Positions 108 through 31,063 of a DNA stretch of 33,654 nt are shown here, one piece after another. The stretch is from NCBI GenBank assembly GCA_019456225.1, contig VRUI01000052.1:1-33654 (forward strand), given 5' to 3'. The notes under the pieces were generated by a model. It had not been told where the DNA came from, ran no database searches, and saw only the letters and a program-made list of their open reading frames with translations. Position 1 is the stretch's first letter; each line of letters opens with the position of its first letter. A program made the translations under genes and the position numbers. Source of the DNA: Planctomycetota bacterium. Lineage in GTDB: Bacteria > Planctomycetota > Phycisphaerae > Sedimentisphaerales > Anaerohalosphaeraceae.

Positions 108-1868
108 TTATTTTGATTTCGTTGGAATGGTGCAGACTACGCGGAACCCGATGTCGTCGCAAGCTCCGTCGCCCCTGGATCGGACCGCCGAGCGACAGGC
201 CCCGGGATAGCTGCGGTAGGACCCGCCCCGAACAACTCGGGCGGTCCCTTTCGACGGTCCCCTGGGGTCGCTTTTCGGACCATCGCCGTATGGTGCGTAC
301 ATGTCGGCGCACCATTCGCTGAGATTTCCGTGCATGTCGTACAGCCCCCATGCGTTGTTATGTGTCCTGCCGACTTGCATGGGCTTTGGGCGGTGCTTGG
401 AACTCTTGCCTTTATCGAAGGCGTAGTTGCGGTCATAGTTGGCTTGGTTGGCTGTTATTGTCGGACCAAAGCTGAACGGCGTGTCGGTTCCGGCTCGGCA
501 GGCGTATTCCCACTGGGCTTCGGTCGGTAGGGCGTAGGTGCGTTTGTCGGTTTTGGCGAGCATTTGGCAGAACTTATCGGCGTCCGGCCAGGAGATATTC
601 ACAGCGGGCATATTGTCGCCTTTTGTACCCTTTGCACCTTTTTTACCACTGACCGCGTTGTAGTACTTCTGGGTGACTTCGTGGATGGACATGTAAAACG
701 CTTTGGTCAGCGTGACTTTGTGTCGCGGATGCTCGCCAGCGAACATCTTTGGCTGGGCGTCGGGCCGGTTGGAGAGTTTCGCGACCTGGTCGGGGGTGAT
801 CTTCGAGCCCATCATGAACTCACCTGGCGGGATCAGGACGAATCGCATTCCGACGGAGTTTTCGAATGCGACCGGCGCGCCGAGGGCTTTGGCGGTCGCG
901 ATCTGCTTTATGGACACTCTTGCCCAGGGTATCTTGGCCCGGAGTTTCTTCTGATCTTCAATCGCGTAGAATTTTTCGGCGAGTCCTTCCGGCCAGCGGA
1001 ACGTCGGCGCCTTTTCGAGATTGAAGCCTTTTAAATGGGGTTCGTGTAGTCGTTTTGATATGGGCACGTAAGTCCATTTGTTTTGTGCGAATGACTCGTC
1101 GAGCAGTTTGGCTAGACCGGGCAGATATTTTTTCACATGCTCTCTGCGTTGGATGTGGATTACGTGCTCACCGTTGGGGCCGATCCTTTCGAGTGAACTT
1201 TGCCCACCGCCTGATTTCGGTCTGGTGGCCCCGTTGCAGTTGAACCAGGCCTGCACGCTCTCGGCCCAGAACTCGCTCGAATTCTTGACGCCGTATCCGC
1301 GGAACAGCCCGCTCTTGGCGGCCTTGGCGTGCAACGCATCCAGGCGCTTTTGGAATTCCTTGTCTATGCTCCTAAAGGCACTGTTTAGCCCGTGACCGAA
1401 TTCGTGGATGAAGATGTTCTCACCGGCCCAGGGGTCTCCCTTGAAGCACAGGACGTTCTCTTCACCGCAACTGATCGTACTGCCGGCCAAGCCGCGGGCG
1501 CGGTAGTCCCACCAGGGGCTCATTCCGCGGCATGCCGGAAGGGCGCTCTGCATCTCGGTATACGCCAAAACGGTAAGCAACCTGGTGTATCCGTTCAGCA
1601 CGTCCGGACGGTTGGCCAGTAGTTTCCTCGCAAGGTACGCCACCTCCTGAAGGGCTCGCATGGAGACCTTCTCCGAACCGGCGACCATTGTCCCGCCGAC
1701 CGGGACGTACTGCTTGAAGAACGGGTCCAGCTTCTTGACCCTGGCGGCGATCGAGGCGCGTTTCGCCGCGGCGTCCGGACTGGCCGCCGACACCGCGCAC
1801 GTAAAGAGCAGGCAGCATGCGGCGCATGCCAGGAACAGGCTGCTGTATCGAGAGAGTCTTGCGTCCAT
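108..1868 (-). CDS. Secreted zincin metallopeptidase fused to a SUMF1 (FGE-like) domain
   Basis: A 586-aa exported protein. Residues 1-28 form a signal peptide (basic start, long Cys/Leu/Ala core, VSA-A type cleavage). Residues about 40-260 carry HEFGH at 155-159 and a downstream EFWAE (E199/E203), the arrangement of gluzincin-like metallopeptidases in which two His and a later Glu bind zinc. Residues about 337-582 are a SUMF1/formylglycine-generating-enzyme fold (FVLIPPGEFMMGS, ALPTEAQWEYACRAG, GLYDMHGNLSEW, GFRVVC). Aligned back from GFR, the two catalytic Cys positions of true FGE read Pro and Ser, so a structural or binding role is more likely than sulfatase activation. ATG at 1868 is chosen because AAGGA lies 7 nt upstream; in-frame ATG 1883 and GTG 1898 would extend it. 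The promoter cassette at 1912-2064 points into it. Protease activity is inferred from motifs only. Confidence 0.85.
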   Translation of the reverse strand: MDARLSRYSSLFLACAACCLLFTCAVSAASPDAAAKRASIAARVKKLDPFFKQYVPVGGTMVAGSEKVSMRALQEVAYLARKLLANRPDVLNGYTRLLTVLAYTEMQSALPACRGMSPWWDYRARGLAGSTISCGEENVLCFKGDPWAGENIFIHEFGHGLNSAFRSIDKEFQKRLDALHAKAAKSGLFRGYGVKNSSEFWAESVQAWFNCNGATRPKSGGGQSSLERIGPNGEHVIHIQRREHVKKYLPGLAKLLDESFAQNKWTYVPISKRLHEPHLKGFNLEKAPTFRWPEGLAEKFYAIEDQKKLRAKIPWARVSIKQIATAKALGAPVAFENSVGMRFVLIPPGEFMMGSKITPDQVAKLSNRPDAQPKMFAGEHPRHKVTLTKAFYMSIHEVTQKYYNAVSGKKGAKGTKGDNMPAVNISWPDADKFCQMLAKTDKRTYALPTEAQWEYACRAGTDTPFSFGPTITANQANYDRNYAFDKGKSSKHRPKPMQVGRTHNNAWGLYDMHGNLSEWCADMYAPYGDGPKSDPRGPSKGTARVVRGGSYRSYPGACRSAVRSRGDGACDDIGFRVVCTIPTKSK

Positions 1869-1879: not shown

Positions 1880-1969
1880 TCATAATTCGGCGGGCCACTC
1901 TTCATCTTGATAACCGTTCACGGGAATTTTGAGCGTATTGAGCAACGCACTCAATGTCAAAATGCCCAT
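1880..1969 (-). other. Possible leader mini-ORF of promoter cassette copy 1 (29 aa)
   Basis: The transcribed part of the cassette holds an ATG-started frame beginning MGILTLSALLNTLKIPVNG, shared by all three cassette copies. In this copy it runs on for ten more codons and its TGA overlaps an in-frame ATG (1883) of the metallopeptidase gene. There is no convincing ribosome-binding site at its ATG. It could be a leader peptide, a relic of a coding 5' end, or chance. Confidence 0.2.
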
Positions 1970-2064
1970 TTTCGACTCGATCAAATACAAATCCCTATGC
2001 TTTTGATGAATTATAGCATATTCAAGGTGGTATGTCAATATTTGTCTCAAGCAAAGCCCTAAAT
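1912..2064 (-). repeat. Promoter/leader cassette, copy 1 of 3
   Basis: A 153-bp sequence running (minus strand) from ATTTAGGG to GTGAACGGTT. It is nearly identical to 19697-19849 (same length) and 28919-29068 (150 bp, with a 3-nt net deletion just after the -10). It contains a consensus promoter and, in the leader, overlapping inverted repeats: TTGAG/CTCAA around a 7-nt loop, and an alternative outer pairing ATTTTGA/TCAAAAT. The ends lack inverted repeats, so it is not an ordinary MITE. Its downstream edge is 43 bp from the ATG at 1868. Confidence 0.9.
2010..2038 (-). promoter_or_regulatory. Consensus sigma-70 promoter in cassette copy 1
   Basis: On the minus strand, TTGACA (2033-2038), a 17-bp spacer and TATAAT (2010-2015), with TG one base before the -10 (extended -10). 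This matches the bacterial housekeeping consensus at every hexamer position and reads toward the metallopeptidase/SUMF1 gene. Expected start is near 2003. Confidence 0.8.
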
Positions 2065-2259
2065 TTGTCCAATAATAATCGTGTTGGCAACCTCGCTGAA
2101 CAGGCGATACGATTTGTTGTTATAGACCGTTATATTACCCAGGGAACCCGCAGCGAAAACGGCAGGAACTGGAGTGAACGCATCTGGACCGTAATGGCAA
2201 CCTGTGCCAGCCAGGGCCGAAATGCATTCGATTTTATATACCAGTCTATCCAAGCTCAT
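2059..2259 (-). pseudogene. Short unidentified ORF cut by the cassette
   Basis: A 66-codon frame with GGAG just before its ATG at 2259. It ends Gly-Gln-Ile-stop, the last Ile codon and TAG being supplied by the first bases of the cassette. I do not recognise the sequence. It lies 81 nt beyond the glycosidase stop and could be the remaining 5' part of a third gene of that operon, truncated when the cassette arrived. The rest of the interval 2065-2340 shows only a hairpin at 2310-2336. Confidence 0.25.
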
Positions 2260-2309
2260 TTCTCCAATCAGCCTTTTTCATCACTACTGGGGCCATAATC
2301 CACATTTAT

Positions 2310-2336
2310 GCCCTGTGAACGGTTACAACTCAGGGC
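2310..2336 (-). terminator. Hairpin after the probable glycosidase gene
   Basis: GCCCTG and CAGGGC are separated by 15 nt, directly beyond the stop at 2341. The minus-strand 3' side has no T-run, while a GTTTT follows on the plus strand. The loop contains GTGAACGGTTA, which is also the terminal motif of the 150-bp cassette. Confidence 0.3.
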
Positions 2337-6499: not shown

Positions 6500-6518
6500 A
6501 TATTGGAAATAAGGCCTA

Positions 6519-6533: not shown

Positions 6534-6590
6534 TAAGATATATAAGGATATATGGGAAATCTTAGATTGATTATTAGGAGATTCAAAATT

Positions 6591-11832: not shown

Positions 11833-12792
11833 GTGACAAAGGATCTGGCCACGCAAAGCGTTTTTGTGCTGCTGGTCGCCACAACCTGCTGTCTTGCGGG
11901 CTGCGCCTCCGCGCGCGATGGCGAGCATGGAACAGCGACGCCCGGCACGGAGCTGCCGCCGACGCCATCCTGGGCGCAGGTCTCCAAGGCCCAGATTGCC
12001 GAGGCGAGGAAGTTGGACGTTCCGGTCGCCTTTGCCAATAAGGCCGGCATCAAGTTTGTATTGGTTCCCGAGGGTGACTTCTTGATGGGCAGCGCCGAGG
12101 ATGAGCCGGGCAGGTATCCGGTAGAGGGCCCCCAGCACAAGGTCACGATTCGAAAGCCATTCTATGTTGCGATCCACCAGGTGACACAAGGCCAATGGAA
12201 GTCCGCTGTGGGCACCAAACCATGGTTGGTCGAACGAGCGCACAGCGTGCGGGACGATCCCGCCAACGTGGCCACCTGGGTCGATTGGGACGATGCCACG
12301 AATTTTTGTGCCAGGCTCAGCAAGAAAGAGAGTAGGCCCTATCGTCTTCTGTCAGAAGCCGAATGGGAGTACATGTGCCGAGCCGGCAGCACAACACGTT
12401 ACTTTTATGGCGATGATCTCAAGCTGGAAAAGCTGAATGAATACGGCTGGTACGGTCAAGAGGGCTGGTACGGGCGCGCCGCCGACGATAGATACGTGCG
12501 GCCGCCGGGATTGAAGAAACCGAATGCCTGGGGCATCTATGACACCATCGGCAGCGTCTGGGAAATGTGCCAGGATGTCATGCACCCGAACTATGAAGGC
12601 GCACCTGCCGACGGCAGCGCTTGGATCACGGGTGGCCCCATTGATAAAGAACCGGATCACCCGCTTCGCGGCGGCGGTTCGCATAGCGATGACAGGCGTG
12701 TTCGTACAGCAAGCCGCCACTCCTATCACCAGTCGGCCAGCAGCCACTATGTTGGTTTTCGCGTCTGTTGTGATCTTCCTCCGCGCAAGTAA
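11833..12792 (+). CDS. SUMF1-domain lipoprotein
   Basis: A 319-aa protein with a lipobox (LAGC, Cys24), so probably lipid-anchored. About residues 50-315 form a SUMF1/FGE-like domain (FVLVPEGDFLMGS, RLLSEAEWEYMCRAGSTTRY, GIYDTIGSVWEMCQD, VGFRVCC). The C-terminal core lacks both FGE catalytic cysteines. The segment before the domain (VSKAQIAEARKLDVPVAFANKAG) is closely related to the matching linker in the other two SUMF1 proteins here, so the three are paralogues. The start is uncertain: GTG 11833 has no ribosome-binding site, while a good AAAGGAG at 11802-11808 faces ATT 11812 and GTC 11815 in the same frame, suggesting a non-standard or mutated start. The 3' end abuts an IS66 relic. Confidence 0.7.
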   Translation: MTKDLATQSVFVLLVATTCCLAGCASARDGEHGTATPGTELPPTPSWAQVSKAQIAEARKLDVPVAFANKAGIKFVLVPEGDFLMGSAEDEPGRYPVEGPQHKVTIRKPFYVAIHQVTQGQWKSAVGTKPWLVERAHSVRDDPANVATWVDWDDATNFCARLSKKESRPYRLLSEAEWEYMCRAGSTTRYFYGDDLKLEKLNEYGWYGQEGWYGRAADDRYVRPPGLKKPNAWGIYDTIGSVWEMCQDVMHPNYEGAPADGSAWITGGPIDKEPDHPLRGGGSHSDDRRVRTASRHSYHQSASSHYVGFRVCCDLPPRK

Positions 12793-13049
12793 AGTGTATG
12801 TATCGGCGCGAAAACACCATGTCCAGAAACGCTTTTTGTTTTCCTTATGTCCGGTTTCATCTACATTAAGTTTTGCTTCATTGGGCAGATATTCAAGTAG
12901 TACAGCAACCTGTTTTTCAAGTTTCGCGATGCGGCGAATATAGAATTGTTCTGTTTTTCAAGTCTGCTGGGATTGATAGAAAGGCCATTTTTAGCTAATT
13001 TGAAGTTAAGTTTTGCTTGATCAGTAAGAAAAAAACGAATTTTTCGCAC
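12790..13049 (-). pseudogene. IS66-family transposase relic, internally deleted and frameshifted
   Basis: Minus-strand translation gives a coiled-coil segment (IRRIAKLEKQVAVLLEYL) joined directly to PNEAKLNVDETGHKENKKR and FWTWCFRADTYTLL. VDETG....K..WTWCFRA is the start of the IS66 DDE catalytic domain. The zinc-finger and linker region that normally separates the coiled coil from the catalytic domain is missing, and the far N-terminal part (KLNFKLAKNGLSINPSRLEKQ) is in another frame. The end toward 12790 stops in the last codons of the SUMF1 lipoprotein gene. Confidence 0.7.
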
Positions 13050-13112: not shown

Positions 13113-13254
13113 GAAATGTCAGATTATAAGGCTCAGCCATATCGACCGTAACAGCGTAGACTTCGCAAATCGGAAAGTTATTAACCCGAAGCCACGTCTT
13201 GCCCCGGTCATAAGATATATATATCATAACTGAAATTGCACTAGGAGAATCAAC

Positions 13255-14550: not shown

Positions 14551-14595
14551 GTTACTATAACTATCTATCGTTAACGTACACAAAGGAGCACCATC

Positions 14596-16023
14596 GTGAA
14601 GAACAAAAAAGTCTATCGAATCGCGTACCTAATCCCCGTCCTCGCCGTCCTGCTCGGAGGCCAAAGCGTCACCCAGGCGGAAGTCGGTCCTGTAGCGACT
14701 GGCTGGCCGCAATGGCGCGGCCCGAATCGCGACGGTAAATCGGCCGACACAGGCCTGCTCAAAAGCTGGCCGAAGGGTGGACCGAAGAAACTGTGGGAGG
14801 TCAAAGATATCGGCAATGGCTATTCCAGCGTCACTCTTGATGACGGCCTGGTCTATATCACCGGTCGCAAACCGCATGCGGACGAAAAGATCGAATATAA
14901 GAACCCCCCGAAGCACATCTGGCAGATCAAGGGCCAGGGCTTCTATATCACTGCTATCGACGACGCTACCGGAAAAGTGAAGCAGTCCAAAGATGTCACT
15001 ACCGCGTATTACGATCAACTCCGTGCCGATGGCACCCGCGAGAATCTCTCCTACAAAGGCACGCGTGCCAGCATCACAATCGAGGACGACCGCCTCTATG
15101 TCACCACCGGCCTGGGCGAAATCATGTGTCTGAAGAAGGATACATTCGAACGCATTTGGACGCGCAAAGTCCAGGAAAAGGAGTTTGGCAGCGGCATTAC
15201 CGGTCATGGGTGGGGGTTTGCTGAATCGATCCTGATCCATAAAGACAAGGCCATCTATTGCACCGGCGGTGACATAACGTACATGATCGCACTGGACAAG
15301 ATGACGGGTAAGACTCTGTGGAAATCGCCTCCGAACGGCCAGAGCCAATACGGCTCGACCATTTATGCTGACGTGGATGGTGTGCCGATGCTTGTCAATG
15401 GCAGCCGTGTCGGCCTCATGGGCGTTCACGCTGAAACAGGCGCAGAACTCTGGAAGTATGAATTCGCCAAGGGCAACACGGCAAGCTGCAATACGCCGAT
15501 CTATTCGGACGGCTTTGTCTTCTGGCCCTGCGGCTACGGCAAAGGCGGCATCTGCCTTAAGATGACTGCCGACGGTCAAAAGGTTGCAGCCACTAAGGCC
15601 TGGGAAACCAAAGACGCGAGCTGTCACCACGGTGGCATGATCTTGCACGAGGGTTATCTCTACGGAAACAACAAGAACGGTTTCGTCTGCATCGATTTCA
15701 AAACGGGCGAAACCATGTGGAAGACGAAGGACTTCGACAAGGACAAAAGGATTCCAAAGGGGTCCCTCTGCTGGGCCGATGGCATGTTCTACGTTTTCGC
15801 CGAGAAAGCCGGTGAAATGTTCCTGTGCGACTGCACCCCGAAAGGCTATGAGATCAAGGGCCGCTTCTTCGCCGAAGGTTTTGCCGACAAGTCCGGCTGG
15901 ACGAAGGAACTGAAACGCACCATGGGCCCCAGTTGGGCTCACCCGGTGGTCACCGGCGGAAAGCTATACCTGCGTCACTTCGACAAATTGTATTGCTTTG
16001 ATGTCACTGCGGCCCAGCATTGA
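14596..16023 (+). CDS. Secreted PQQ-type beta-propeller protein (paralogue 2)
   Basis: A 475-aa protein starting at GTG behind AAAGGAG (spacing 7), with a signal peptide ending near residue 28. It opens GWPQWRGPNRDGKSADTGL and carries blade signatures (AIDDATGKVKQS, ALDKMTGKTLWKSP, GVHAETGAELWKYE, IDFKTGETMWKTKD, final LYLRHFDKLYCFDV). It is longer than paralogues 1 and 3 through inserts near residues 95-160. The intergenic leader and first ~45 codons are almost identical in DNA to those of the gene at 19912. It lies between paralogue 1 and the second HZS-alpha-like gene (58 nt downstream), so these three are probably co-transcribed. Confidence 0.8.
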   Translation: MKNKKVYRIAYLIPVLAVLLGGQSVTQAEVGPVATGWPQWRGPNRDGKSADTGLLKSWPKGGPKKLWEVKDIGNGYSSVTLDDGLVYITGRKPHADEKIEYKNPPKHIWQIKGQGFYITAIDDATGKVKQSKDVTTAYYDQLRADGTRENLSYKGTRASITIEDDRLYVTTGLGEIMCLKKDTFERIWTRKVQEKEFGSGITGHGWGFAESILIHKDKAIYCTGGDITYMIALDKMTGKTLWKSPPNGQSQYGSTIYADVDGVPMLVNGSRVGLMGVHAETGAELWKYEFAKGNTASCNTPIYSDGFVFWPCGYGKGGICLKMTADGQKVAATKAWETKDASCHHGGMILHEGYLYGNNKNGFVCIDFKTGETMWKTKDFDKDKRIPKGSLCWADGMFYVFAEKAGEMFLCDCTPKGYEIKGRFFAEGFADKSGWTKELKRTMGPSWAHPVVTGGKLYLRHFDKLYCFDVTAAQH

Positions 16024-19000: not shown

Positions 19001-19594
19001 TACATGCAGCTTCAGCATATGCCCACGTTCATCAACGTAAGGCCGGGCGAGAACAGATCATGCATAGGGTGTCACGAGCACCGGCGGCAGGCTCCAGCGG
19101 TGACCACTCGCCCCCTGGCTCTGACCCATCCTGTTCAGAACCTAACGCCACAGCCCGGTGACGACGGCCCGCGAACGGTCCACTACGCGACAGACGTTCA
19201 GGCCACTTTCGACAAGCGATGCATATCATGTCACAGCGGCGACAAAGCCAAAGCCGGCCTGGTCCTCACAGGCGAGCCAACCAAGGAGTGGTGTCGCTCT
19301 TACGAGAACATCTTTGGCAAGGGGCTCGTCGCTGTCAGGCACTGTGGGTACGGGCGATCCCAATATGTTCCGCAACCGCCTCTGCACTATGGCTCGCATC
19401 TCAGCAAGCTGACGGCGCGGCTCAGAGAAGACCCGTGCAAGGGGGAACTCACGAAAGAGGAGTTCATCAGAATCGTTACCTGGATGGACGCCAATATACC
19501 GTTTTATGGAACCTACCGTGGCAAGCGGGATCTGAAATACATCGCTGAACCGGACTTCCGGCCGCCGCCGCAGGTGGTAAAACAAAAGCACTAG
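16082..19594 (+). CDS. HZS-alpha-like dihaem c-type cytochrome with beta-propeller (paralogue 2)
   Basis: A 1170-aa exported protein with a signal peptide to about residue 34. Its domain order matches the 6591 protein: two beta-sandwich domains opening IPAWSFARGNGR and IPAWTFDRGNAR, a propeller (HVMDADGKNMRCIS, VMNDGRVVYTRWEY, AIRPDGSGVDHVF), then the hydrazine-synthase-alpha-type middle domain (MFIQDIYQGMTGIARGRVK, KVHEDGSAYFTVPAEQN) and a C-terminal cytochrome-like part. Haem c motifs are CIGCH at C994 and CISCH at C1047. A lysine-rich insert (KKLDGISKDKKGKG) is absent from paralogue 1. GAGG lies about 11 nt before ATG 16082. Its stop codon TAG overlaps the ribosome-binding region of a truncated PQQ gene remnant. 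Confidence 0.8.
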   Translation: MEALEHSRRLTVSIPLVALCVLLIVLFAVPAQAGTIEIPAWSFARGNGRIHADPKEYADAGPVVASGERQPWGWSLEYDVEYPVDGMYRLHIQYASAESRPVSIRFDTRDLTKCCLGISLKPGVSGEPTWKSSGARYELASNRFGEPDNISSDPKQKARAGKHTIVLTSRNPLPHLISLRLTTSEPFPEDWQPPKYKVRDLGSIPTKYRKLFTPPKNVDVAALRRPVADPTAPKFASALMIPAWTFDRGNARIYASPDEYANAGPMIGGGTKDGHSFVEYDIEFPVAGDYTLITKYASADARPTEVLLDNKSAGWCCNGVAFNSPPHQLPLVTSDDSWDVIEGREGVTISAPKGTHTLKLSRQGPLPHLVSLKLGAHTAFPKGWKQSRRVMTHFDQVPSAHQSVFLPANSVNVPALRKAIENTINAYGPGYSGGQEYIDRLAAFEKKEHKILIGAPVGKTFRTARTWLEEESKPTEQRTIDKDLAALRREALLAHPALKFDKLLFVKRAPFKGHIYEDQHNWDKGGNIYLLSPVRPDGIVTKLLPELDGGTFGRFDLSYDASTVVFCYAKKLDGISKDKKGKGVYGPFHIYEFRLDPTTGLKIPGSLRQLTFSGGKAEADAIKSHTWGRHFVAEGFHDIDPCYLPNGDIVFLSARPQRCVFCFPSTSASLHVMDADGKNMRCISQGTLPEMTPSVMNDGRVVYTRWEYVDKGLGNGQAIWAIRPDGSGVDHVFKNSTMRPSGMIHTRGIPGSQRLVSVANPHCGREGGAVVLIDNRATRRTAAAITSLTPEIAYPCMYRATAHMGYFLTPYPLSEDFYLVSHALGSDNKHYGIYVLDRWGNRAELYNDPNVSSFLPVPLRPRRKPTQMATQLEPTAVAAKPHEAYEAQNGTGTMFIQDIYQGMTGIARGRVKYVRVMGVLPWPWGENGVFRIGLPGSVHRKKIYGLAKVHEDGSAYFTVPAEQNLLFQALDENYMQLQHMPTFINVRPGENRSCIGCHEHRRQAPAVTTRPLALTHPVQNLTPQPGDDGPRTVHYATDVQATFDKRCISCHSGDKAKAGLVLTGEPTKEWCRSYENIFGKGLVAVRHCGYGRSQYVPQPPLHYGSHLSKLTARLREDPCKGELTKEEFIRIVTWMDANIPFYGTYRGKRDLKYIAEPDFRPPPQVVKQKH

Positions 19595-19673
19595 GAGAAT
19601 CGACATGGTCTCGAAATCAGCACCGGCAGCACTACGTTGCAGGGCTAATCAGCGTTTCATCAACTACTTGTAG
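19588..19673 (+). pseudogene. 5' stub of a deleted PQQ-propeller gene
   Basis: Positions 19588-19635 are 48 bp almost identical (one mismatch) to 13238-13285: the ribosome-binding site, ATG and first ten codons of PQQ paralogue 1. Identity then stops and the frame ends at TAG 19671. The matching 3' stub (GATATCAAG, one codon, TGA) is at 19851-19866, on the far side of the promoter cassette. Confidence 0.75.
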
Positions 19674-19696
19674 CGAATTGGTTGTTCTCCCTAAGG

Positions 19697-19849
19697 ATTT
19701 AGGGCTTTGCTTGAGACAAATATTGACATACCACCTTGAACATGCTACAATTCATCAAAAGCATAAGGGTTTGTATTTGATCGAATCGAAAATGGGCATT
19801 TTGACATTGAGTGCGTTGCTCAATACGCTCAAAATTCCCGTGAACGGTT
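19697..19849 (+). repeat. Promoter/leader cassette, copy 2 of 3
   Basis: A 153-bp copy in plus orientation, nearly identical to the copies at 1912 and 28919. It replaces the body of a PQQ gene whose two ends flank it. The downstream gene (GTG 19912) starts 62 nt beyond the cassette. The bases between 19636 and 19696 match nothing else that I can see in the window. Confidence 0.9.
19723..19751 (+). promoter_or_regulatory. Sigma-70 promoter in cassette copy 2
   Basis: TTGACA (19723-19728), 17-bp spacer, TACAAT (19746-19751), with TG one base before the -10. There is one mismatch to consensus in the -10. It points at the PQQ gene at 19912. Confidence 0.75.
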
Positions 19850-19866
19850 GCGATATCAAGGGCTGA
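19792..19866 (+). other. Possible leader mini-ORF of cassette copy 2 (24 aa)
   Basis: Same 19-residue opening as in the other copies (MGILTLSALLNTLKIPVNG). Here it continues in frame into the last codons of the deleted PQQ gene (DIKG, stop at 19866). Confidence 0.2.
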
Positions 19867-19911
19867 GTTACTATAATTATCTGTCGCTAACATACACAAA
19901 GGAGCACCATC

Positions 19912-21198
19912 GTGAAGAATAAAAACGTCTATCGAATCGCGTACCTAATCCCCGTCCTCGCCGTCCTCGCCATCCTGCTCGGAGACCAAAGCGTCACCCA
20001 GGCCCAAGCCGGTTCTGTAGCGACTGGCTGGCCGCAATGGCGCGGACCCAACCGCGACGGAAAGTCGCTGGACACCGGACTGCTGAAAGCCTGGCCTGAA
20101 GGCGGCCCCAAACAGATCTGGAAGGCTACAGGCATGGCCAAGGGCTTCTCCACCGTATCAATCGGCGGCGGGCAGCTCTACACGACCGGCATTATTTTGC
20201 CCGATCCCAAGGACAAGAAGACCTGGCGCCTCCAGATGACTGCCGTAGACCTCGGTGGCGAGGTCAAGTGGCAGAAAAATGTTGGACCGGCCTACACAGG
20301 CTCCTACTCAGGCTCTCGGGCGACCCCCACCTACGACAACGGCAACCTCTACCTGCAATCCGGCAAGGGCCTCCTCGGTTGCTACGACGCAAAGACAGGC
20401 GAGACGAAGTGGACCAAGGACAACAGTGAGTTCGGCGGGAAGCACGCAAATTGGGGTTACACAGAGTCCATACTGATCCTTGGCGACCTGTTGATTGTAA
20501 CGCCCGGCGGCGAGAAGGGATTCATGGTTGCCCTTAACAAGAACACTGGCGAAAAGGTCTGGCAGTCGGAACCGTTCGGCTATCCACATTACAGCTCTCC
20601 GATCCATGTGACCTACAAGGGCGTGCCAATGATTATCACCGCAGCACGCAGTGGCATAATCGCTGTCGACCCGAAGACCGGCAAAATCCTCTGGACGCAT
20701 GCGTTCGCAGTCGGAAACGTTGCCAACTGTCCGGATCCGGCGTTCTATGACGGCTACGTATTCTGGTCGGTTGGTTATGGCAAGGGCTGCGTTTGCTTGA
20801 AACTGTCAGTAGATGGCGACAAGGTGACTGCCACCGAGGCATGGCAGAACAAGGACATGGTTTGTCACCACGGCGGTTACGTCATTCTCGATGGCTATGT
20901 CTTTGGCAATCACAACAAGGGCATGACATGCCTGGATCTCAAGACGGGCGCAGTGAAGTGGTACGATGACGCTGTAGGCAAAGGCTCTGTCTGCTACGCC
21001 GACGGTATGCTGTACCTCCTCGGTGAAAAGAAAGGCAAAGTCGGACTTGCCGCAGCATCGCCGAACGGGTTCAAGCTCGCCGGCACCTTCAGTATTGAAG
21101 GCAAGGCCGCGAGCTGGGCGCATCCCGTCGTCAATGATGGCCGCCTCTACCTGCGTTACGACGACAACCTCTACTGCTTTGATGTAAAGGCGAAGTAG
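19912..21198 (+). CDS. Secreted PQQ-type beta-propeller protein (paralogue 3, chimeric 5' end)
   Basis: A 428-aa protein with GTG start behind AAAGGAG (spacing 7) and a signal peptide to about residue 31. The leader and first ~45 codons are nearly identical at DNA level to paralogue 2, apart from a 9-nt insertion in the signal-peptide core. The body resembles paralogue 1 more ([64 protein letters not shown]). Closing blade: LYLRYDDNLYCFDVKAK. The gene is therefore probably a recombinant of the two types. It is driven by cassette copy 2 and followed after 41 nt by the YVTN/cytochrome gene, likely in the same transcript. Confidence 0.8.
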   Translation: MKNKNVYRIAYLIPVLAVLAILLGDQSVTQAQAGSVATGWPQWRGPNRDGKSLDTGLLKAWPEGGPKQIWKATGMAKGFSTVSIGGGQLYTTGIILPDPKDKKTWRLQMTAVDLGGEVKWQKNVGPAYTGSYSGSRATPTYDNGNLYLQSGKGLLGCYDAKTGETKWTKDNSEFGGKHANWGYTESILILGDLLIVTPGGEKGFMVALNKNTGEKVWQSEPFGYPHYSSPIHVTYKGVPMIITAARSGIIAVDPKTGKILWTHAFAVGNVANCPDPAFYDGYVFWSVGYGKGCVCLKLSVDGDKVTATEAWQNKDMVCHHGGYVILDGYVFGNHNKGMTCLDLKTGAVKWYDDAVGKGSVCYADGMLYLLGEKKGKVGLAAASPNGFKLAGTFSIEGKAASWAHPVVNDGRLYLRYDDNLYCFDVKAK

Positions 21199-21239: not shown

Positions 21240-23051
21240 ATGACAACACTCAGACCAATCCTCACAATTATGTTAATAGCAGTTGTCGCCACAAACGCAG
21301 CTGCCGACAAGAAGTACGTCTCACCCCTCGCCGTTGTGGCGAACACAGAGGGTGACACACTGTACGTCGCCGGATATACCGCAGAGAAGGTTTCGATACT
21401 GAACGTGGCAACGGGTAAGACGAAGCCTGTCTCGGTCCCGGGTCGCCCGACAGGCCTGGCACTGTCCAAGAACGGCAAGGAGCTGTTTGTCAGCGTAGCC
21501 GGCCCCGCCGGTGGCGTGCATGTACTGAAAGCCAAGGGCGGCAAAGTCACACGCTCGTTGCCCACAGGCCACACACCCATGTCGCCCGTGCTCAGCCCGG
21601 ACGGCAAGACGCTCTACGTTTGCAACCAATTCACCGATGACGTTTCTGTCATCACCTTGAAAGGCGACGCAAAGCCCGTTCGTATCCCGGTCAAGCGTCA
21701 GCCGGTCGCCGCAGCCATCACACCCGATGGCAAGCAGTTGTTCGTGGCCAACTTGCTCCCTGAGGGTGCGGCCAACGGCGCCTATGTTGCGGCCTCTGTA
21801 TCGGTGATTGATACTGCTGCTCTGAAAGTGACCGCAACACTCCAGCTGCCGAACGGGAGCTCGAGTTTGAGAGGCATCTGCGTCTCACCCGACGGCAAGC
21901 ACGTGTATGTGACTCATATCCTCGGTCGTTACCATATGCCGACCATCCAGGTGGAACGTGGATGGATGAACACCAATGCCATGACCATCATCGATGTCAC
22001 AAAGATGAAGGTCCTGAACACCGTGTTGCTCGATGACACCGAACTCGGCGCGGCAAATCCCTGGGGTGTGGCATGCACGGCAGATGGCAAGTACATCTGC
22101 GTAGCGCACTCGGGAACTCACGAACTCAGCGTGATCGATCAGCAAGCATTGCTCGCAAACCTGCAGTCCGTTGAGAAACCTGATGAAGTGTGTGACGACC
22201 TCGCATTCTTGGTAGGCATCCGGAGACGTCTGAACCTGAGCGGCCAAGGGCCGCGCGGATTGGTAATGGTAGGCAGCGTAGCCTATGCCGCTGAGTACTT
22301 CACCGATAGCGTAGGAGTCCTGGACATCAACCCCGACGCTAGCCCAAGGCCGAAAGCCAAGTCACTGCCGTTGGGCCCGAAGATCACGGAAAGCGTGGCG
22401 CGCAAGGGCGAAAGAATCTTCTATGATGGCAAGGCTTGTTTCCAGCAGTGGCAAAGCTGCGCTACCTGTCATCCTGACACGCGTGTCGATGGGCTGAATT
22501 GGGACCTCTTGAACGACGGGATGGGTAACCTCAAGCAGGTCAAGAGCATGCTCCTCTCGCACAAGACGCCACCGGCGATGGCAACCGGCATACGCGGCTC
22601 GGCCGAGATCGCCGTGCGAGCTGGATTCAAATTCATTCACTTCGCCGTCCGACCTGAGGAAGACGCGACGGCGGTTGACGAATACCTTAAGTCCCTCAAG
22701 CCCGTGCCCAGCCCCTACCTGGTCGACGGCAAGCTCAGTGATTCCGCCAAGCGCGGCAAGAAGCTGTTCTTCGACAAGAAGGTCGGCTGTGCTGCATGCC
22801 ACCCCAAGCCACTCTACACCGATCTCAGCTCATACGACGTAGGCAGCAAAACCGGGAACGATAAGACCAGCGTCTTCGACACTCCGACACTGATCGAGTG
22901 TTGGCGGACCGCCCCCTACATGCACGACGGGCAGTTCTCGGACATGAAGTCGTTGTTGACCGATGGAAAACACGGCATAGAGAAGGGCAGTGAGAACACG
23001 CTCAGCAAAGAGCAACTCAACGACCTCATCGAATTCGTGCTATCACTCTAG
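21240..23051 (+). CDS. YVTN-propeller protein fused to a MauG/cytochrome c peroxidase-like dihaem domain
   Basis: A 603-aa exported protein with a signal peptide to about residue 21. Residues about 25-385 are a YVTN-type propeller (LSKNGKELFVSV, LSPDGKTLYVCNQFTDDVSVI, ITPDGKQLFVAN, VSPDGKHVYVTH). Residues about 390-600 hold two haem c sites, CATCH at C407 and CAACH at C517, in a layout like MauG/bacterial cytochrome c peroxidase, with the late APYMHDGQF.......L segment typical of that family. AGGGG precedes ATG 21240. It is the last gene of the propeller/cytochrome run and is the best candidate for a peroxidase or electron-accepting partner of the HZS-alpha-like proteins. Its TAG stop lies inside the CTAG bordering a MITE. 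Confidence 0.8.
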   Translation: MTTLRPILTIMLIAVVATNAAADKKYVSPLAVVANTEGDTLYVAGYTAEKVSILNVATGKTKPVSVPGRPTGLALSKNGKELFVSVAGPAGGVHVLKAKGGKVTRSLPTGHTPMSPVLSPDGKTLYVCNQFTDDVSVITLKGDAKPVRIPVKRQPVAAAITPDGKQLFVANLLPEGAANGAYVAASVSVIDTAALKVTATLQLPNGSSSLRGICVSPDGKHVYVTHILGRYHMPTIQVERGWMNTNAMTIIDVTKMKVLNTVLLDDTELGAANPWGVACTADGKYICVAHSGTHELSVIDQQALLANLQSVEKPDEVCDDLAFLVGIRRRLNLSGQGPRGLVMVGSVAYAAEYFTDSVGVLDINPDASPRPKAKSLPLGPKITESVARKGERIFYDGKACFQQWQSCATCHPDTRVDGLNWDLLNDGMGNLKQVKSMLLSHKTPPAMATGIRGSAEIAVRAGFKFIHFAVRPEEDATAVDEYLKSLKPVPSPYLVDGKLSDSAKRGKKLFFDKKVGCAACHPKPLYTDLSSYDVGSKTGNDKTSVFDTPTLIECWRTAPYMHDGQFSDMKSLLTDGKHGIEKGSENTLSKEQLNDLIEFVLSL

Positions 23052-23212
23052 TGCTTTGTCCTCTGTAAAATTCTGGTTTTATAACAGATTAAGTTAGTCA
23101 GCCGCAAGGCCGGCGAAGCAGGCAATGTTGTAATATTGCCGATGCAGCCGAACGCAGTGGATGGCTGATTGCAGCAAGCTGATCCTGAATTTTATCAGGG
23201 ACACAGTACTAG
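23048..23212. mobile_element. 165-bp palindromic MITE, copy 1
   Basis: Bounded on both sides by CTAG. Imperfect terminal inverted repeats run from TGCTTTGTCCTCTGTAAAAT to ATTTTATCAGGGACACAGTA. An inner pair (AGTCAGCC / GGCTGATT) and a central 8-bp hairpin (23121-23140) make the whole element foldable. It is about 95% identical to 30899-31063. No ORF. It sits on the stop codon of the YVTN/cytochrome gene without changing it, and could also act as a transcription barrier. Confidence 0.75.
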
Positions 23213-23626: not shown

Positions 23627-26600
23627 TCATGAACCTGGTGATGGTGTCCCTGCCGTCCAGTTGGCTACGTCGTTGCCGTAGCTTGTCAAGCTGGAACGGT
23701 GCAGGGAATGTCCCAGGCCGCCAAGAGAGTCGCCGTCAGCACTTTCAGGCCAGGGGTCGATATAGTCCAACTCGCGGAAGTTTTCGCCGTGTAAGCCATC
23801 GCTGTAATTTACCCGGTCAACGCGAATGTACGGCACGAAGCCATCTGGTTCAGGAGTGCCGGGCTTTTGGAGTTCAATCTTTTCGCCGCCATTGCTTAAT
23901 CGGCCTTCGAGCCATTCGAGTGTCGTTACAGAAGCGGGAGAGAACTCCTCGTTCAGCGCCACGTCGTTCTTGGTCAGCAGCAGGTAGCTGCCAGCGGTCA
24001 GGTTTGTACCTGGGGGAATGTAGTACTCGATGCCGCCTGTCTCATCTATCAGGAGCCAGTCATCAAGTGTAACGGTGCCGCCGGAGATATTCTTGATCTC
24101 GACGTACTCGGCATAGTCGTTGCCTGCTGGATGATACATTATCTCACTGATAACAACCGGGCCGACCTTGGGTGAACTGCCGGTGTTGGCCGCGTCACGA
24201 GTAGGAGCATCCATCGACACGAAATCAACGTCGTAGCCTGCTGCGGCACTCTTTGTATATCTGCCGAAGCTGACCCCATCTTCTGATGCCTTGAAGTCTT
24301 CCTTCGTGCAGAATCCGCCTGCCAATTCGCCGCCTGAGCCGGAACAGAGATATGCGGTTTCACCGAGTTCGCTGTATCCAAACTGTACTTTAGAGCCGAG
24401 GTCACCTGCATTGCCGAAATCGTCATCCTGTGTGAAAACTACGTAACCACCCGGCGGTATGGATGCCCGCGGGTCGCCTGCTTGTATCTCGTATTTTTTG
24501 AAGTCGTTGTCATCATCGCTGAGGAACCAGCCGGCGATGTTGATAGTCGAGCCGGAGGTGTTGTGCAGCTCAATCCAGTCGTTGGGGGAGCTGTTAGTAT
24601 GCGCCATGATCTCACTGATGACGATGTCGCCGGGTAATGCAACATGGCCGGTGTCACCGTTTGATGGTGTACCGCCTGCGACGGCGCTTGGCTGCCAGTA
24701 CTGGGCGTATTCCCAGCTATTGAGGTCGGTATTGGTTGGGTCGATGATGTTGAGCGAGAAATCGTCGCCATCGGTGATTGGATACCAGCCGTCCTTGAAC
24801 CGGAAGTTCAATATCGTTTCGCCGAGTGCATCGACCAGCTCTATCCTTTCGCCACCATTGTTTATCGAACCGGTATAGGTTCCGGCAATCAGCGACGGTG
24901 ATACGCCCGGATAACGAGCCTCAAAAGCGGCCTGATTCTTGACGACCACGCAATAACCACCTGCGGGCAGGATGTGGCTTGGAAATGTAAAATCTATGCC
25001 GTCGGTAAAGCGAACGAGGTTCAGATTCAGAGCCGTACCGCCAATATTCTTCAACTCGATAAACTCAAAATCCTCGTCTATGAGAGTCTGGTTTTCGGCG
25101 TCATCTTTTTCATCTTGTGTCGGATCAGTTGGATGGTACATGATCTCCGTAATACGAATCGAATCAGCAACACTGCCAACGGCGAAGACCGCCTCATTTA
25201 AAGCACTCCACTCGTCGCTACTATTCCGTACTCTTGCCTTTATTTGTTTGGTGCCGTTGAGTATGTACGGCAAGGAAGAAGAAGCGCTGCCTGAGACTGC
25301 GCCGCCCTGGAGGCGTGGGTCGGAACCGTCTGTGGTGTACCAGATAGTTCCGCCGCCGTTTTTGGTCATTGTCAGACTCGCGCCGGCTGATACGTAACCG
25401 CCATGCTGGCTGAACACAGGAGCGTCAACGTTGGGATACAAGCCAATAGCTTTGTATTGGTTAAAAAGTATACCCGAACGGAAGCCCATAAAGTCATTAA
25501 GAATCCAGTCTTGCGCAACGATCCAGTCAGCGCGAGTATAGGAGTCGCCGTTGTTCGGATAATTGCCGATTTTTAAATTCAGTTCAGCATCACCCCACCT
25601 GGCCGATTCGCCGATGATTGCTGTGTCAAGCTCATTGGCGCGACGCATCCATCGTTGGCGGCATGGCTCCGGTGTCATGAGCCCGCCGTTGAAGAAATGG
25701 CGGTGCAAATGATCGGCAAATAACAAGCGGAACTCTGGATTCTGACGTAATTGGTTATAGATCCGTCTGGGGGATTTAGGCCAGTCTACTACCAATTCGT
25801 GGTTCACATCAAAGAAGGACATCTCCGAGTCCCAGAGGAAAAACTTGAACCCGGCGACGGGCAGGCGTCTTCGGCCGACATACCAGTTCGATTCTTCCCA
25901 GTCCGTATTTTGGGTATAATGCTGAGTGATCACAAAATCAATCAGGTTATCCACGTCAAGGTAGTCCTTGATACGGTCGTAACCCACCTGGGTCGACACT
26001 CCAGGCAGTCCTGTCACTCTACCTTCCACTATATCATGCATGTAGTCCCAGGCTGCACTGTCACCATCTATAACATTTGCGGCATGATGGGCCGGGTCCG
26101 GATTATCGGGGTTCCACCCTGCGCTGCCGTTAATAGAATCCCAATCTTCCCTCTGCCCGCCGAGATGGTCCGCAAGAAACGGCGCATTGGGCCGCTCACT
26201 CGGGTTGTACAGGCCCCAGTACAGACCATTTAGATAAAGATGGACGTATCTGCTGCGCGAGGCAGGATGCCCCAAAGCCAACTGGGTGTCCCGTGCCCAA
26301 ACATCGCGAATGCTGGATTGGGCTTTAGGCCTATTCGTGTCATTGCCTGTGCGATGGTTGTTCCACTGGAGATTGTTTCCACCGCGAAGTACTATGGTGT
26401 CAAATTGGTCTACGGGCGAGCCTTCAAAAAGGGGATAATTGAGCTTCGATGCTGCTCCATTCTCACCATTGAACAGCAAACGGAAAGAGTGCTTGAGATT
26501 CTCATTAATGTCCCTGCTTCCACCACCGTGGTTACGGATATTGCAATTGATTTCAAAACCTTGTGTTCCATCAGAATGTATCAGTTCTACTGAAGCTGGC

Positions 26601-28843
26601 TTCTGATCATTAGCACCAGGATGGGCATAGATCCCGCCTTCCCCCTTAATGAACAGGTCGTCCATATCCATGACAATGGACATAGTGGCAATGGAAGTGA
26701 ATGCATCATCAAGCTGTGATATAGAATTGGACGAAATAACAACGGGATCGATTCCATAATCTACGGGCTCTACTGTACTACTATTAAAGTCATGCCAGGT
26801 ATTAGGAAATCCGACTGGTTGGTCCGGTTGACTGTATACATCGTCGAGTGATATATATGAATTAGTCTCAACGGGGCCAAGTGTATAGCCCGATTCGATA
26901 GCTGCGGCGCGGATAATCGCAGTGCTGTTAACGGTAAACGGCCCGCCATAGACTTGTCCGTGTGATGCAGTCGGTTTGCTGCCATCGGTTGTGTAACGAA
27001 TAGTTGCGACAGATTTAGTCGTTAAGCCTAAGGAAAAACTGCCTTTAAAGAGTCCGGCTGGGCGAGAGAAGTAAACCTCTCCGGACATGGGCGCAACATT
27101 GGGAAGGCCCTTTGTGGCGTTGGCCATGTTATACCAGTTATCGGTAGCGTTAGGATATCGACCATAGGATACATCTGTGTCCATGGAACTAAAGCTTTTA
27201 GTGTCAATAACAGTTATGCCGTCAGTATCATATAGGGTAACGCTGTCACCGTTTGCACTGAGTTTGAAGTTGGTATGAAGATCGCCCTCGCTGGTTTCAT
27301 CATCTGCCCATTCTCCATCTGCCCAGAAGATCTTGTACCCGTAGCCGTTAATAGAAACGCCGGAAGGTATCGTCCATGTATTACCATCGTCAGCCAGAAC
27401 CATACTGGCCATATTAACAGTCGAAGATCCCGGATTGTAGATTTCAATCCAGTCATCATGATCGCCATGTTCATCGTAGATATCGCTACTATCGTCATTA
27501 GAGGCCATCATTTCATTGATGACGAGCACAGGCAGGATATGCGGAGCTTCGGTTGTAGCAGATGCCCCACCTGATGCGGCACCAACATTAGGCGTAGGCG
27601 AAACAGAGTCACGCATCTGAACCGTGTAGGTGTACTCCGTCGAAGGAGCCAAACCTGTGTCGGTATAGCTTTCACTTGTCCGCCATGTACTGCTGTGACC
27701 ACCGCCTGCTGTACAGGTAAAGAGATACTCTACCGGACCAGTTGCATCGGTACCCGTTGTAGCTGTCATGCTGATAGCAGTATCGCTATCGGCAGACGGT
27801 GCCGAAGCAAACGTAGCAGGATCCGGTGTCGGCGGATCACCGGCGTCCTGCCAATTGGCGGAAAAAATGGCAAAGTCGGCACCGTTAACTCCGTCTTGTT
27901 CATTCAGGTCTGCGCATTCGTCCTGATGGCCCGCGCAACCATAAGGGTCCAGCCATTGCAATGCGAAAATCAAAAGATCGTCAATATCGCAATCACAGTC
28001 ATCATCCAGGTCACCGTCTGGACATTCACCCGAAGGTATATCGCCTGTGGTCACCGGGTATGGGTCAGACCAACCGGTCTCATTCTGTTGTGGCGACTGG
28101 TCACGCATTTTGACTCGGTAAGTGTATTGTGTTTGGGGATTAAGGGAGTGGTCGGTGTAATTGTTTTCTGTCTGCCAGTCGCTTGAGCTGCCGCCTTCGT
28201 TGTTGCTGGTTTCTTCAAAATAGTATTCGACACCGCTGGGATCGGTGCCGGTGTTGGCGACCATTGAAATTGACCAGGCACCGTCAGCAGACGGTGCCGA
28301 AGCAAACGTAGCAGGATCCGGTGTCGGCGGATCAGTATCTGGAGGAGGCGGGTCACCGGAACCCGTAAGTGCTGCGCCTGTTATGGCGGCGCCGATGGGG
28401 TTATCAATATTCCCCGTTCCGGTGCCAAAATTAATCGTGGAGACCGTATAGAGATAGGGACCAGGCGGGGCGAAATCGCTGTCGATGAAAAGGGACAGCG
28501 GCGTATCATCCGAAGTGGCCATCAGGAGCCTCACCACAAACTTGAAGGCGCTCTGATCAAATGTCTCCGGCACGCCGGCGACATTGAACGAAGCTGCCAC
28601 TATGGCATCATTGAAGCTGTCGGGGCCGTCGCCGTTGAGCCTCCAGATATACGTGTCTACTCCTCCAGAGCTATCGTCAGGAGCAAAGTCGGTATCAAAG
28701 GTTATAGTACCTGTGATCACGTCATCATCCATCGTGAGCACATAATCGACGGACGCGGCTGTCGCGACGCCCGCAACGAAGCCTAAGACCAAAACAAAAA
28801 TAATTAAATAAAACAGTCTTTTACACATAAAATATTTAACCAT
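23627..28843 (-). CDS. Giant secreted lamin-tail / CotH-kinase surface protein
   Basis: A 1738-aa protein. Signal peptide (MCKRLFYLIIFVLVLGF...ATA) nearly identical to that of the 31065-32273 gene. Rough domain order: N-terminal beta domain shared with the two neighbouring surface genes (35-165); FN3-like (175-270); dockerin-like calcium-binding segment (GDLDDDCDCDIDDLLIFALQ, 277-340); FN3-like (345-435); lamin-tail domain (445-580); chitobiase/FN3-like (590-670); CotH kinase-like (700-1120, with ESNWYVG and FFLWDSEMSFFD); second chitobiase-like (1180-1245); three more lamin-tail domains (about 1255-1740, each starting with I.EIM or similar). CotH proteins phosphorylate proteins; this family is common in Phycisphaerae and its role there is unknown. 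No ribosome-binding site is strong: ATG 28843 is taken, with ATG 28828 and TTG 28852 as alternatives. Cassette copy 3 drives it. Confidence 0.8.
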   Translation of the reverse strand: MVKYFMCKRLFYLIIFVLVLGFVAGVATAASVDYVLTMDDDVITGTITFDTDFAPDDSSGGVDTYIWRLNGDGPDSFNDAIVAASFNVAGVPETFDQSAFKFVVRLLMATSDDTPLSLFIDSDFAPPGPYLYTVSTINFGTGTGNIDNPIGAAITGAALTGSGDPPPPDTDPPTPDPATFASAPSADGAWSISMVANTGTDPSGVEYYFEETSNNEGGSSSDWQTENNYTDHSLNPQTQYTYRVKMRDQSPQQNETGWSDPYPVTTGDIPSGECPDGDLDDDCDCDIDDLLIFALQWLDPYGCAGHQDECADLNEQDGVNGADFAIFSANWQDAGDPPTPDPATFASAPSADSDTAISMTATTGTDATGPVEYLFTCTAGGGHSSTWRTSESYTDTGLAPSTEYTYTVQMRDSVSPTPNVGAASGGASATTEAPHILPVLVINEMMASNDDSSDIYDEHGDHDDWIEIYNPGSSTVNMASMVLADDGNTWTIPSGVSINGYGYKIFWADGEWADDETSEGDLHTNFKLSANGDSVTLYDTDGITVIDTKSFSSMDTDVSYGRYPNATDNWYNMANATKGLPNVAPMSGEVYFSRPAGLFKGSFSLGLTTKSVATIRYTTDGSKPTASHGQVYGGPFTVNSTAIIRAAAIESGYTLGPVETNSYISLDDVYSQPDQPVGFPNTWHDFNSSTVEPVDYGIDPVVISSNSISQLDDAFTSIATMSIVMDMDDLFIKGEGGIYAHPGANDQKPASVELIHSDGTQGFEINCNIRNHGGGSRDINENLKHSFRLLFNGENGAASKLNYPLFEGSPVDQFDTIVLRGGNNLQWNNHRTGNDTNRPKAQSSIRDVWARDTQLALGHPASRSRYVHLYLNGLYWGLYNPSERPNAPFLADHLGGQREDWDSINGSAGWNPDNPDPAHHAANVIDGDSAAWDYMHDIVEGRVTGLPGVSTQVGYDRIKDYLDVDNLIDFVITQHYTQNTDWEESNWYVGRRRLPVAGFKFFLWDSEMSFFDVNHELVVDWPKSPRRIYNQLRQNPEFRLLFADHLHRHFFNGGLMTPEPCRQRWMRRANELDTAIIGESARWGDAELNLKIGNYPNNGDSYTRADWIVAQDWILNDFMGFRSGILFNQYKAIGLYPNVDAPVFSQHGGYVSAGASLTMTKNGGGTIWYTTDGSDPRLQGGAVSGSASSSLPYILNGTKQIKARVRNSSDEWSALNEAVFAVGSVADSIRITEIMYHPTDPTQDEKDDAENQTLIDEDFEFIELKNIGGTALNLNLVRFTDGIDFTFPSHILPAGGYCVVVKNQAAFEARYPGVSPSLIAGTYTGSINNGGERIELVDALGETILNFRFKDGWYPITDGDDFSLNIIDPTNTDLNSWEYAQYWQPSAVAGGTPSNGDTGHVALPGDIVISEIMAHTNSSPNDWIELHNTSGSTINIAGWFLSDDDNDFKKYEIQAGDPRASIPPGGYVVFTQDDDFGNAGDLGSKVQFGYSELGETAYLCSGSGGELAGGFCTKEDFKASEDGVSFGRYTKSAAAGYDVDFVSMDAPTRDAANTGSSPKVGPVVISEIMYHPAGNDYAEYVEIKNISGGTVTLDDWLLIDETGGIEYYIPPGTNLTAGSYLLLTKNDVALNEEFSPASVTTLEWLEGRLSNGGEKIELQKPGTPEPDGFVPYIRVDRVNYSDGLHGENFRELDYIDPWPESADGDSLGGLGHSLHRSSLTSYGNDVANWTAGTPSPGS
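27792..27839 (-). repeat. Internal 48-bp direct repeat, copy A
   Basis: Identical to 28287-28334 inside the same gene. It encodes the linker and first strand (DPPTPDPATFASAPSAD) that open each of the two FN3-like modules. Exact DNA identity indicates recent duplication or conversion. Confidence 0.8.
28287..28334 (-). repeat. Internal 48-bp direct repeat, copy B
   Basis: Partner of 27792-27839, about 495 bp apart in the same orientation. Recombination between the two would delete one FN3-like module and the dockerin-like segment in frame (495 is divisible by 3). Confidence 0.8.
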
Positions 28844-28871: not shown

Positions 28872-28976
28872 TTACCCAGCCCTTCTGAGGGGCAAACCCG
28901 TAGGGTACAAATATTCGTAACCGTTCACGGGTATTTTGAGCGTATTGAGCAACGCACTCAATGTCAAAATGCCCAT
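28872..28976 (-). other. Possible leader mini-ORF of cassette copy 3 (34 aa)
   Basis: Same 19-residue opening as in the other two copies, then 15 copy-specific codons ending in TAA at 28872. The one base change inside the shared 19 codons is synonymous (ATT to ATA). Confidence 0.2.
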
Positions 28977-29068
28977 TTTCGACTTGATCAAATACAAATC
29001 CCTACGTGATGAATTATAGCATATTCAAGGTGGTATGTCAATATTTGTCTCAAGCAAAGGCCCTAAAT
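28919..29068 (-). repeat. Promoter/leader cassette, copy 3 of 3
   Basis: A 150-bp minus-strand copy, nearly identical to 1912-2064 apart from a few substitutions and a short gap after the -10. It lies 75 nt before the ATG of the lamin-tail/CotH gene. Confidence 0.9.
29013..29041 (-). promoter_or_regulatory. Consensus sigma-70 promoter in cassette copy 3
   Basis: Minus strand: TTGACA (29036-29041), 17 bp, TATAAT (29013-29018), extended -10 TG. It reads into the 23627-28843 gene. Confidence 0.8.
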
Positions 29069-30898: not shown

Positions 30899-31063
30899 CT
30901 AGTGCTTTGTCCTCTGTAAAATTCTGGTTTTATAACAGACTAAGTTAGTCAGCCGCAAGGCCGGCGAAGCAGGCAATGCTATAGCATTGTCGATGCAGCC
31001 GAACGCAGCGGATGGCTGATTGCAGCAAGCTGATCCTGAATTTTATCAGGGACACAGTACTAG
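30899..31063. mobile_element. 165-bp palindromic MITE, copy 2
   Basis: Same structure as 23048-23212: CTAG at each border, imperfect terminal inverted repeats, central hairpin at 30972-30991. It ends one base before the CTAG that holds the stop codon of the 31065-32273 gene. No transposase for it is recognisable in the window. Confidence 0.75.

Follow-up and report, generated by a model that had tools for sequence, protein, structure and literature searches.

The 153-bp unit that occurs three times in the window (the whole 33,654-nucleotide stretch of DNA analyzed here) is one end, that on the transposase-start side, of a single-ORF (ISBst12-like) insertion sequence (IS) of the IS66 family. 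Judging from sequence and placement, the ends of this element probably act as mobile promoters, and some of them appear to have been turned into 5′-UTR leaders. The original prediction had seen in the unit a mobile or gene-converted transcription module that could not be matched to any named class of elements. Its mobile nature is borne out by the IS66-family identity, which also makes gene conversion unnecessary to explain the copies and provides the class that was missing, the unit being part of a larger, ordinary insertion sequence, an outcome that the prediction itself had listed as counting against it.

The identity of the unit emerges from its edges. When flanked copies are aligned, they share a sharp 3′ edge at GTGAACGGTTAC and no common 5′ edge; the former is the IS tip, while the latter is no element boundary. 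Several copies enter, on their upstream side, an ORF of the opposite strand, and in a relative (G044) this ORF is a complete transposase of 479 amino acids, matching the IS66 models NCBIfam NF033517 (300 bits, cutoff 180) and Pfam PF03050 (1.2e-41). This single ORF occupies most of the full-length element of 1,647 bp between its tips, with no tnpA or tnpB. The element starts with GTAACCGTTCACAGGG and ends with CCGTGAACGGTTAC, with GTAACCG inverted repeats, and is flanked on both sides by an 8-bp target duplication, TCGTTTTC (8/8). Terminal inverted repeats starting with GTAA are a mark of the IS66 family, and both termini of this element carry them. Three other candidates were tried and set aside: gene conversion together with the downstream gene, as the flanks past the tip are unrelated; an integron attC-like site, as orientation is mixed and inverted repeats plus a target duplication fit IS66; and an IS200/IS605-type hairpin end, given up once the IS66 transposase was found.

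In the genome from which the window derives, represented by a 4.45-Mb draft assembly of 152 contigs, a profile search found no PF03050 match, only fragments of the transposase being present. However, IS stubs of approximately 75 bp are found at contig ends (C117, C26, and C80 for the promoter side, C79 and C139 for the other side, these five ends all sitting at contig edges), which suggests that intact copies exist in this genome but failed to assemble. Three shorter elements share the IS66 termini without possessing the 153-bp unit, and their target duplications (Table 1) imply that such termini have been mobile in this genome. As to elements with both ends of the IS itself, one (C102:51953-52742) has a target duplication of 7/8, and none was found at copy 1 of the window, C10, or C99.

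Table 1. Features of the window, with three related mini-elements located elsewhere in the same genome (IR, inverted repeat; TSD, target duplication).
Feature	Position	Strand	Remarks
Copy 1 of the 153-bp unit	1912..2064	-	-35 at 2038-2033, -10 at 2015-2010
Copy 2 of the 153-bp unit, solo IS end	19697..19849	+	-35 at 19723-19728, -10 at 19746-19751
Copy 3 of the 153-bp unit, solo IS end	28919..29068	-	-35 at 29041-29036, -10 at 29018-29013
65-nt hairpin-plus-tip module, copy 1	1910..1974	-	Covariance models R1 and R2
65-nt module, copy 2	19787..19851	+	Hairpin 19794-19839, IS tip 19840-19851
65-nt hairpin-plus-tip module, copy 3	28917..28981	-	Covariance models
Copy 1 element, IS66 family, internally deleted, both terminal IRs, no TSD	1910..2326	-	IR matches 1910-1924, 2312-2326
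Far (transposase-3′ side) IR GTAACCGTTCACAGGG, missed in the original prediction	2311..2326	-	
IS66 transposase remnant	2083..2295	+	Residues 409-479 of the relative's protein, 85% identical
Two further IS fragments, neither end included	12791..12964	+	Query 678-791 and 1413-1466
Match to IS-free paralogous stretch 14536-14651	19852..19967	+	94% identical, begins exactly past the IS tip; family D5
Target gene 1, signal peptide-like, FGE-sulfatase (SUMF1-like) domain	111..1868	-	
Target gene 2, signal peptide-like, PQQ_2 beta-propeller	19912..21198	+	
Target gene 3, signal peptide-like, lamin-tail/CotH/CHB_HEX domains	23627..28843	-	
Mini-element with IS66 termini	L140:1823-2152		TSD 7/8
Mini-element with IS66 termini	L140:4520-4748		TSD 8/8
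Mini-element with IS66 termini	L148:13378-13596		TSD 8/8

The three copies are indeed near-identical, copies 1 and 3 matching copy 2 at 97% and 92% identity. They had been described as ending without inverted repeats, which does not hold, as their 3′ end, GTGAACGGTTAC, is a terminal inverted repeat with a partner, GTAACCGTTCACAGGG, at the far end of the copy 1 element. The reported lack of a target duplication is correct for copy 1 (CCTGAGTT versus CAAGATGA) but not for the full-length copy in the relative, and the abrupt divergence outside the unit is true of the 3′ side only, as copy 1 continues to position 2326 as IS sequence. In a blastn comparison with the full-length IS, query positions 1-238 align at 2326-2089 and 1484-1645 at 2090-1912. 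Among the 16 other ends in the genome that are uncut by a contig edge, 13 reach further upstream than does copy 2, and six of these run well into the transposase gene. For copy 2, similarity to an IS-free paralogous stretch starts exactly past the tip, so the tip is the junction, and on the upstream side positions 19588-19635 match 13238-13285 at 98%. The duplicated PQQ-gene block (13238-14651 versus 19588-19967) presents an occupied/unoccupied site pair for an IS66 end, and most of the first PQQ gene of the duplicated pair appears to have given way to copy 2, which now stands directly before the second.

Each copy carries a promoter-like motif, TTGACA-17-TATAAT in copies 1 and 3 and with TACAAT as the -10 in copy 2, with TG before the -10 in all three. 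In consensus scans of the window, these stood out as had been claimed, 12/12 sites being those of copies 1 and 3 only; copy 2 scored 11/12 with TG, and a single further site, at 5996-5968 on the minus strand, scored 11/12 without TG. We infer that the IS end bears an outward sigma-70-type promoter (TTGACA-17-TGnTATAAT). All three copies aim at the start of a gene, with likely start codons at +42, +61, and +74 past the tip, and all three genes encode signal-peptide-like N-termini, with starts, ORFs, and signal peptides called here and throughout by simple heuristics of our own rather than by trained predictors. The domains proposed for these genes were recovered (FGE-sulfatase, PQQ_2, and LTD/CotH), with the exception of the metallopeptidase proposed for gene 1, no metallopeptidase match being found there in Pfam. 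Other repeats are present in the window. An inverted-repeat mini-element (GAGCCTGTTGCACAA...) at 5995-6105 and 6389-6499 has further copies in the genome, several of its arms adjoining gene starts, and a 165-bp repeat, 96% identical between 23048-23212 and 30899-31063, lies at the 3′ ends of two oppositely running ORFs.

The placement seen in the window is repeated across the genome, in which the 153-bp query has 23 matches, a number not due to chance. Of the 22 promoter-side ends scored (C57:60073-60107, consisting of a 5′ part with no tip, was left out), 21 face the start of an ORF at 18-223 bp. The only exception is C99, where the tip is mutated and the gene ahead is convergent; a 58-aa ORF that follows this end is covered by the convergent ORF of 268 aa. 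When intergenic positions are drawn at random and both directions are considered, a start lies ahead at no more than 223 bp in 30.5% of cases in 20 background stretches, and in 28.0% of cases locally, around the ends themselves. The other end of the IS, used as its own query, gave eight matches, of which seven are ends, and only one of the seven faces a start (21/22 versus 1/7, Fisher 1e-4). The gene-facing promoter-side ends comprise 15 solo ends, three in two-ended elements, and three contig-end stubs, versus one solo end, four in two-ended elements, and two stubs for the other side; the excess of solo ends, 15 to 1, has a one-sided binomial probability of 2.6e-4, two head-to-head ends on C103 being counted as two solo ends. 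This pair (L054:4078-4732, that is, C103:33077-33731) stands before a prepilin-like gene and a phytase gene. The trait by which mobile promoters are recognized, near-identical sequence preceding non-homologous genes of the same genome, is thus present, the genes belonging to varied Pfam families. Both inverted repeats without a transposase, the trait of MITEs, are found in copy 1, C10, C99, and C102, and not in copies 2 and 3 of the window or in the other solo ends.

The last 65 nt of the unit are predicted to fold into a hairpin followed by the tip, and this module is conserved beyond the genome in question. In 29 sequences, 94.6% of cells pair, with four pairs changed on both sides (0/500 shuffles). 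For the inner stem, an alignment (A3) whose 51 rows were picked by hand shows 27 double-change cells (0/500 shuffles) in three pairs (25/500); 24 of the 27 come from one column pair and may represent few events, and such counts are inflated by relatedness of the sequences. The structure given by RNAalifold for alignment A2, carried by model R1, looked wrong on account of gap columns, and the hairpin was therefore tested either as a named structure or as the stored structure of R2. A covariance model detects the module in 34 of the 161 genomes in the order. A second such model, applied to 397 genomes sampled from the class, detects it in 23, just two of which fall outside the order; the genome in question is included in both counts. 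The exact tip pattern is found in 20 stretches, named as Sedimentisphaerales, Phycisphaerae, Phycisphaerales, Planctomycetes, Planctomycetota, and one uncultured bacterium. Rfam gave no matches in the window at the gathering threshold, and, at E up to 0.5 over five loci, the matches were a tRNA and a single weak one, each lying outside the module.

Copies in related genomes show both similarities to and departures from this picture. Of 70 matches tabulated across the order (69 in relatives and one in the genome in question), 66 could be scored, four having less than 600 bp downstream; 51 of these have a start ahead of them at no more than 300 bp, the gene being signal-peptide-like for 38 of the 51, and 15 have none. 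Copies that are intact or look recent give a mixed picture: full copies in G044 and G070 face convergent ORFs, and a near-intact copy in G147 faces a gene 89 bp away that is signal-peptide-like. G019 has three near-identical copies at contig ends, of which one meets a convergent ORF and the others point at doubtful ORFs 199 and 242 bp away. Thirteen of the 24 module-bearing genomes searched have no transposase match at 1e-15. In the searched genomes of this transposase-less kind, 20 of 28 gene-facing copies have a start within 40 nt (median 28), versus 7 of 21 in the genome in question (median 59, p = 0.043) and, for relatives that bear the transposase, 13 of 32 (median 68.5, p = 0.11), a weak tendency toward shorter start distances where the transposase is missing. 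This set consists of searched genomes only, so that unsearched genomes among G087, G088, G097, G139, and G165 are excluded, along with one locus of the genome in question and with G185 (a transposase fragment beside the module) and G022, G039, and G101 (partial transposase matches beside the module). Among 16 deeper matches (one, with 180 bp downstream, unscored), a start lies 12-37 nt downstream in 14 of 15, and only 8 of 15 genes are signal-peptide-like. A promoter score of at least 10 is reached by 16 of 44 copies in relatives, versus 5% of shuffles. The remaining 28 are below 10, including all six of the G155 copies scored, which reach only 7-8, and promoter delivery is thus not the whole story there.

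One example is presented by G155, a genome with no transposase match. Two of its copies have lost the tip, their outer stems being changed yet still complementary, and each stands upstream of a signal-peptide gene. In 301 kb of this genome, three of nine matches with E below 0.001 are without the tip; a strict hairpin-motif scan of the same 301 kb returned two matches, both already known, and cmsearch added one new tip-less copy (L322:3279-3344). G155 also possesses, at L220:1499-1830 and L215:8928-9245, a related element of approximately 330 bp with two same-direction hairpins, 83% identical between the two loci, with no transposase match nearby.

The persistence of the hairpin bears on what it is for. 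Its function may be confined to the IS, such as a block to read-through transcription into the transposase gene, with no role for the host, and its position between the tip and the transposase start fits such a function, hairpins in this position being known in other insertion sequences. We consider this unlikely, as pairing is kept in genomes without a transposase match, with compensatory changes: the inner stem in 33 matches from 29 loci of searched genomes of this kind, in an alignment fitted to the covariance model, has 11 double-change cells (0/500 shuffles), four double-change pairs (10/500), and 10 further pair types (0/500). It is likewise kept in copies that have lost the tip. The converse possibility, that a native leader RNA with its promoter, common to exported-protein genes across the order, was captured by an IS, could draw on the same covariation, on the short distance to the start codon in the deeper matches, on the tip-less copies of G155 with their rebuilt outer stems, and on the genomes in which no transposase is matched. 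It is made improbable by the conserved tip, which is the inverted repeat found at both ends of the IS and resembles the tip of another IS of the ISBst12 group, and by the patchy spread of the module through order and class. Rather, the location near the start codon, the lack of a nearby transposase, and a hairpin that outlasts the tip suggest that, in related genomes, the hairpin of some IS66 ends is now used as a 5′-UTR leader. Whether this amounts to an order-wide domestication is a more tentative matter: it is possible that in the Sedimentisphaerales an IS66 end has become a standing 5′-UTR leader, often on secretome genes, kept by selection after transposase, promoter, and even tip were gone.

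As to the genes faced by the ends, signal-peptide-like targets make up 20 of 21, versus 91 of 285 background genes. However, among the other genes in the same neighborhoods, 46 of 76 are also signal-peptide-like, and the export bias of the targets is thus largely regional, even if 20/21 still exceeds the neighborhood rate (p = 4e-4); these counts are kept as computed, some of the “non-signal” genes resembling, by eye, Tat signals or wrong starts. By Pfam matches, the 21 targets include three sulfatases, one FGE-sulfatase, three GH127, one GH2, one PQQ propeller, three CotH/lamin-tail proteins, one phytase, three proteins with a hydrazine-synthase-alpha-like domain, one N-methylation (prepilin) protein, one DUF5695, one DUF6055, one protein without a Pfam match, and one PALP enzyme, which does not look exported. 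Exported polysaccharide-active enzymes and large surface-type proteins prevail among the targets, in part since such genes dominate the neighborhoods. A second repeated promoter/leader-like unit is present in the window at 6148-6264 (with 6497-6560), with TTGAGT-17-TATTCT by eye, followed by a short hairpin and ATATGGGAAATC. This repeat, family A, has at least 14 matches in the genome and is found in 18 of 59 genomes searched, the genome in question included. With identical 40-bp keys collapsed and weak partial copies left out, 13 copies were scored, and every one of them has a gene start ahead of it, 14-327 bp away, the gene being signal-peptide-like in 11 cases. The proposed common control of exported proteins is therefore retained in part: the targets are mostly exported, but local gene density explains much of this, and another repeat family is placed alike. 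A simple claim that exported proteins are selected is weakened by the same two controls.

With the signal-peptide bias being mostly regional and family A being placed alike, a general tolerance of insertions just 5′ of genes may account for the placement. In its strongest form, this would be ordinary IS66 decay without function, the remnants sitting before exported-protein genes because upstream regions are tolerant. The unit is indeed an IS, the local genes are rich in signal peptides, and other repeat families occupy similar places. Yet decay of this kind seems quite unlikely to be the full account, given that promoter-side and other-side ends differ so strongly in facing a start, that solo ends are nearly all of the promoter side, and that fewer than a third of random local intergenic positions face a start at such distances.

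We therefore return to the IS66 ends as probable mobile promoters, for which the following sequence of events is proposed. An outward sigma-70-type promoter in the IS end would drive transcription through the hairpin, past the tip, and into the neighboring gene, and insertions activating a useful gene would be kept, while deletions, either internal or flanking, would remove the transposase body, so that solo promoter ends remain. In related genomes, the hairpin of some ends would be kept as the tip decays, within a few tens of nucleotides of the start codon, becoming a 5′-UTR leader. The host thus seems to have recycled IS ends as switches. If true, this would be a bacterial transposon seeding promoters along with a structured leader before many genes, caught at the stages of intact IS, deleted IS, solo end, and tip-less leader. 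It would make the building of bacterial regulons from mobile DNA testable, and it would offer a rewiring mechanism for the large repertoire of exported enzymes in these Planctomycetota.

The system described here did not turn up in the searches made of an open-licence library, though outward promoters of IS66 elements may still be in print; its parts have known counterparts. MITEs are comparable in that copy 1 and several sibling elements possess both inverted repeats and no complete transposase, but most copies of the unit carry only one inverted repeat. ISDge4 of Deinococcus geothermalis, of the ISBst12 group of IS66, is described, in the portion of the source available, as having a single ORF of 449 amino acids, a GTAAC tip, and an 8-bp duplication (PMC12898284). 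The element in question shares the single transposase ORF (479 amino acids), the tip, and the size of the duplication, while the outward promoter-like sequence, the hairpin, and the solo ends before host genes are features of the present element. Insertion sequences with complete outward-directed promoters are known, 40 being listed in a review cited in PMC9208149, and the likeness is in a putative outward promoter located in an IS end and facing a neighboring gene. What differs here is that approximately 20 ends of a single IS type, solo or deleted, face genes in one genome and that related modules are spread across an order. Mobile promoters in prokaryotes are also known (Nijveen, Matus-Garcia, van Passel and co-workers, cited in PMC9208149), and, like these, the unit places near-identical promoter sequences before unrelated genes of one genome; in comparison with the brief account given there, the vehicle here is an IS66 end, the end retained is strongly biased, and a structured leader travels along.
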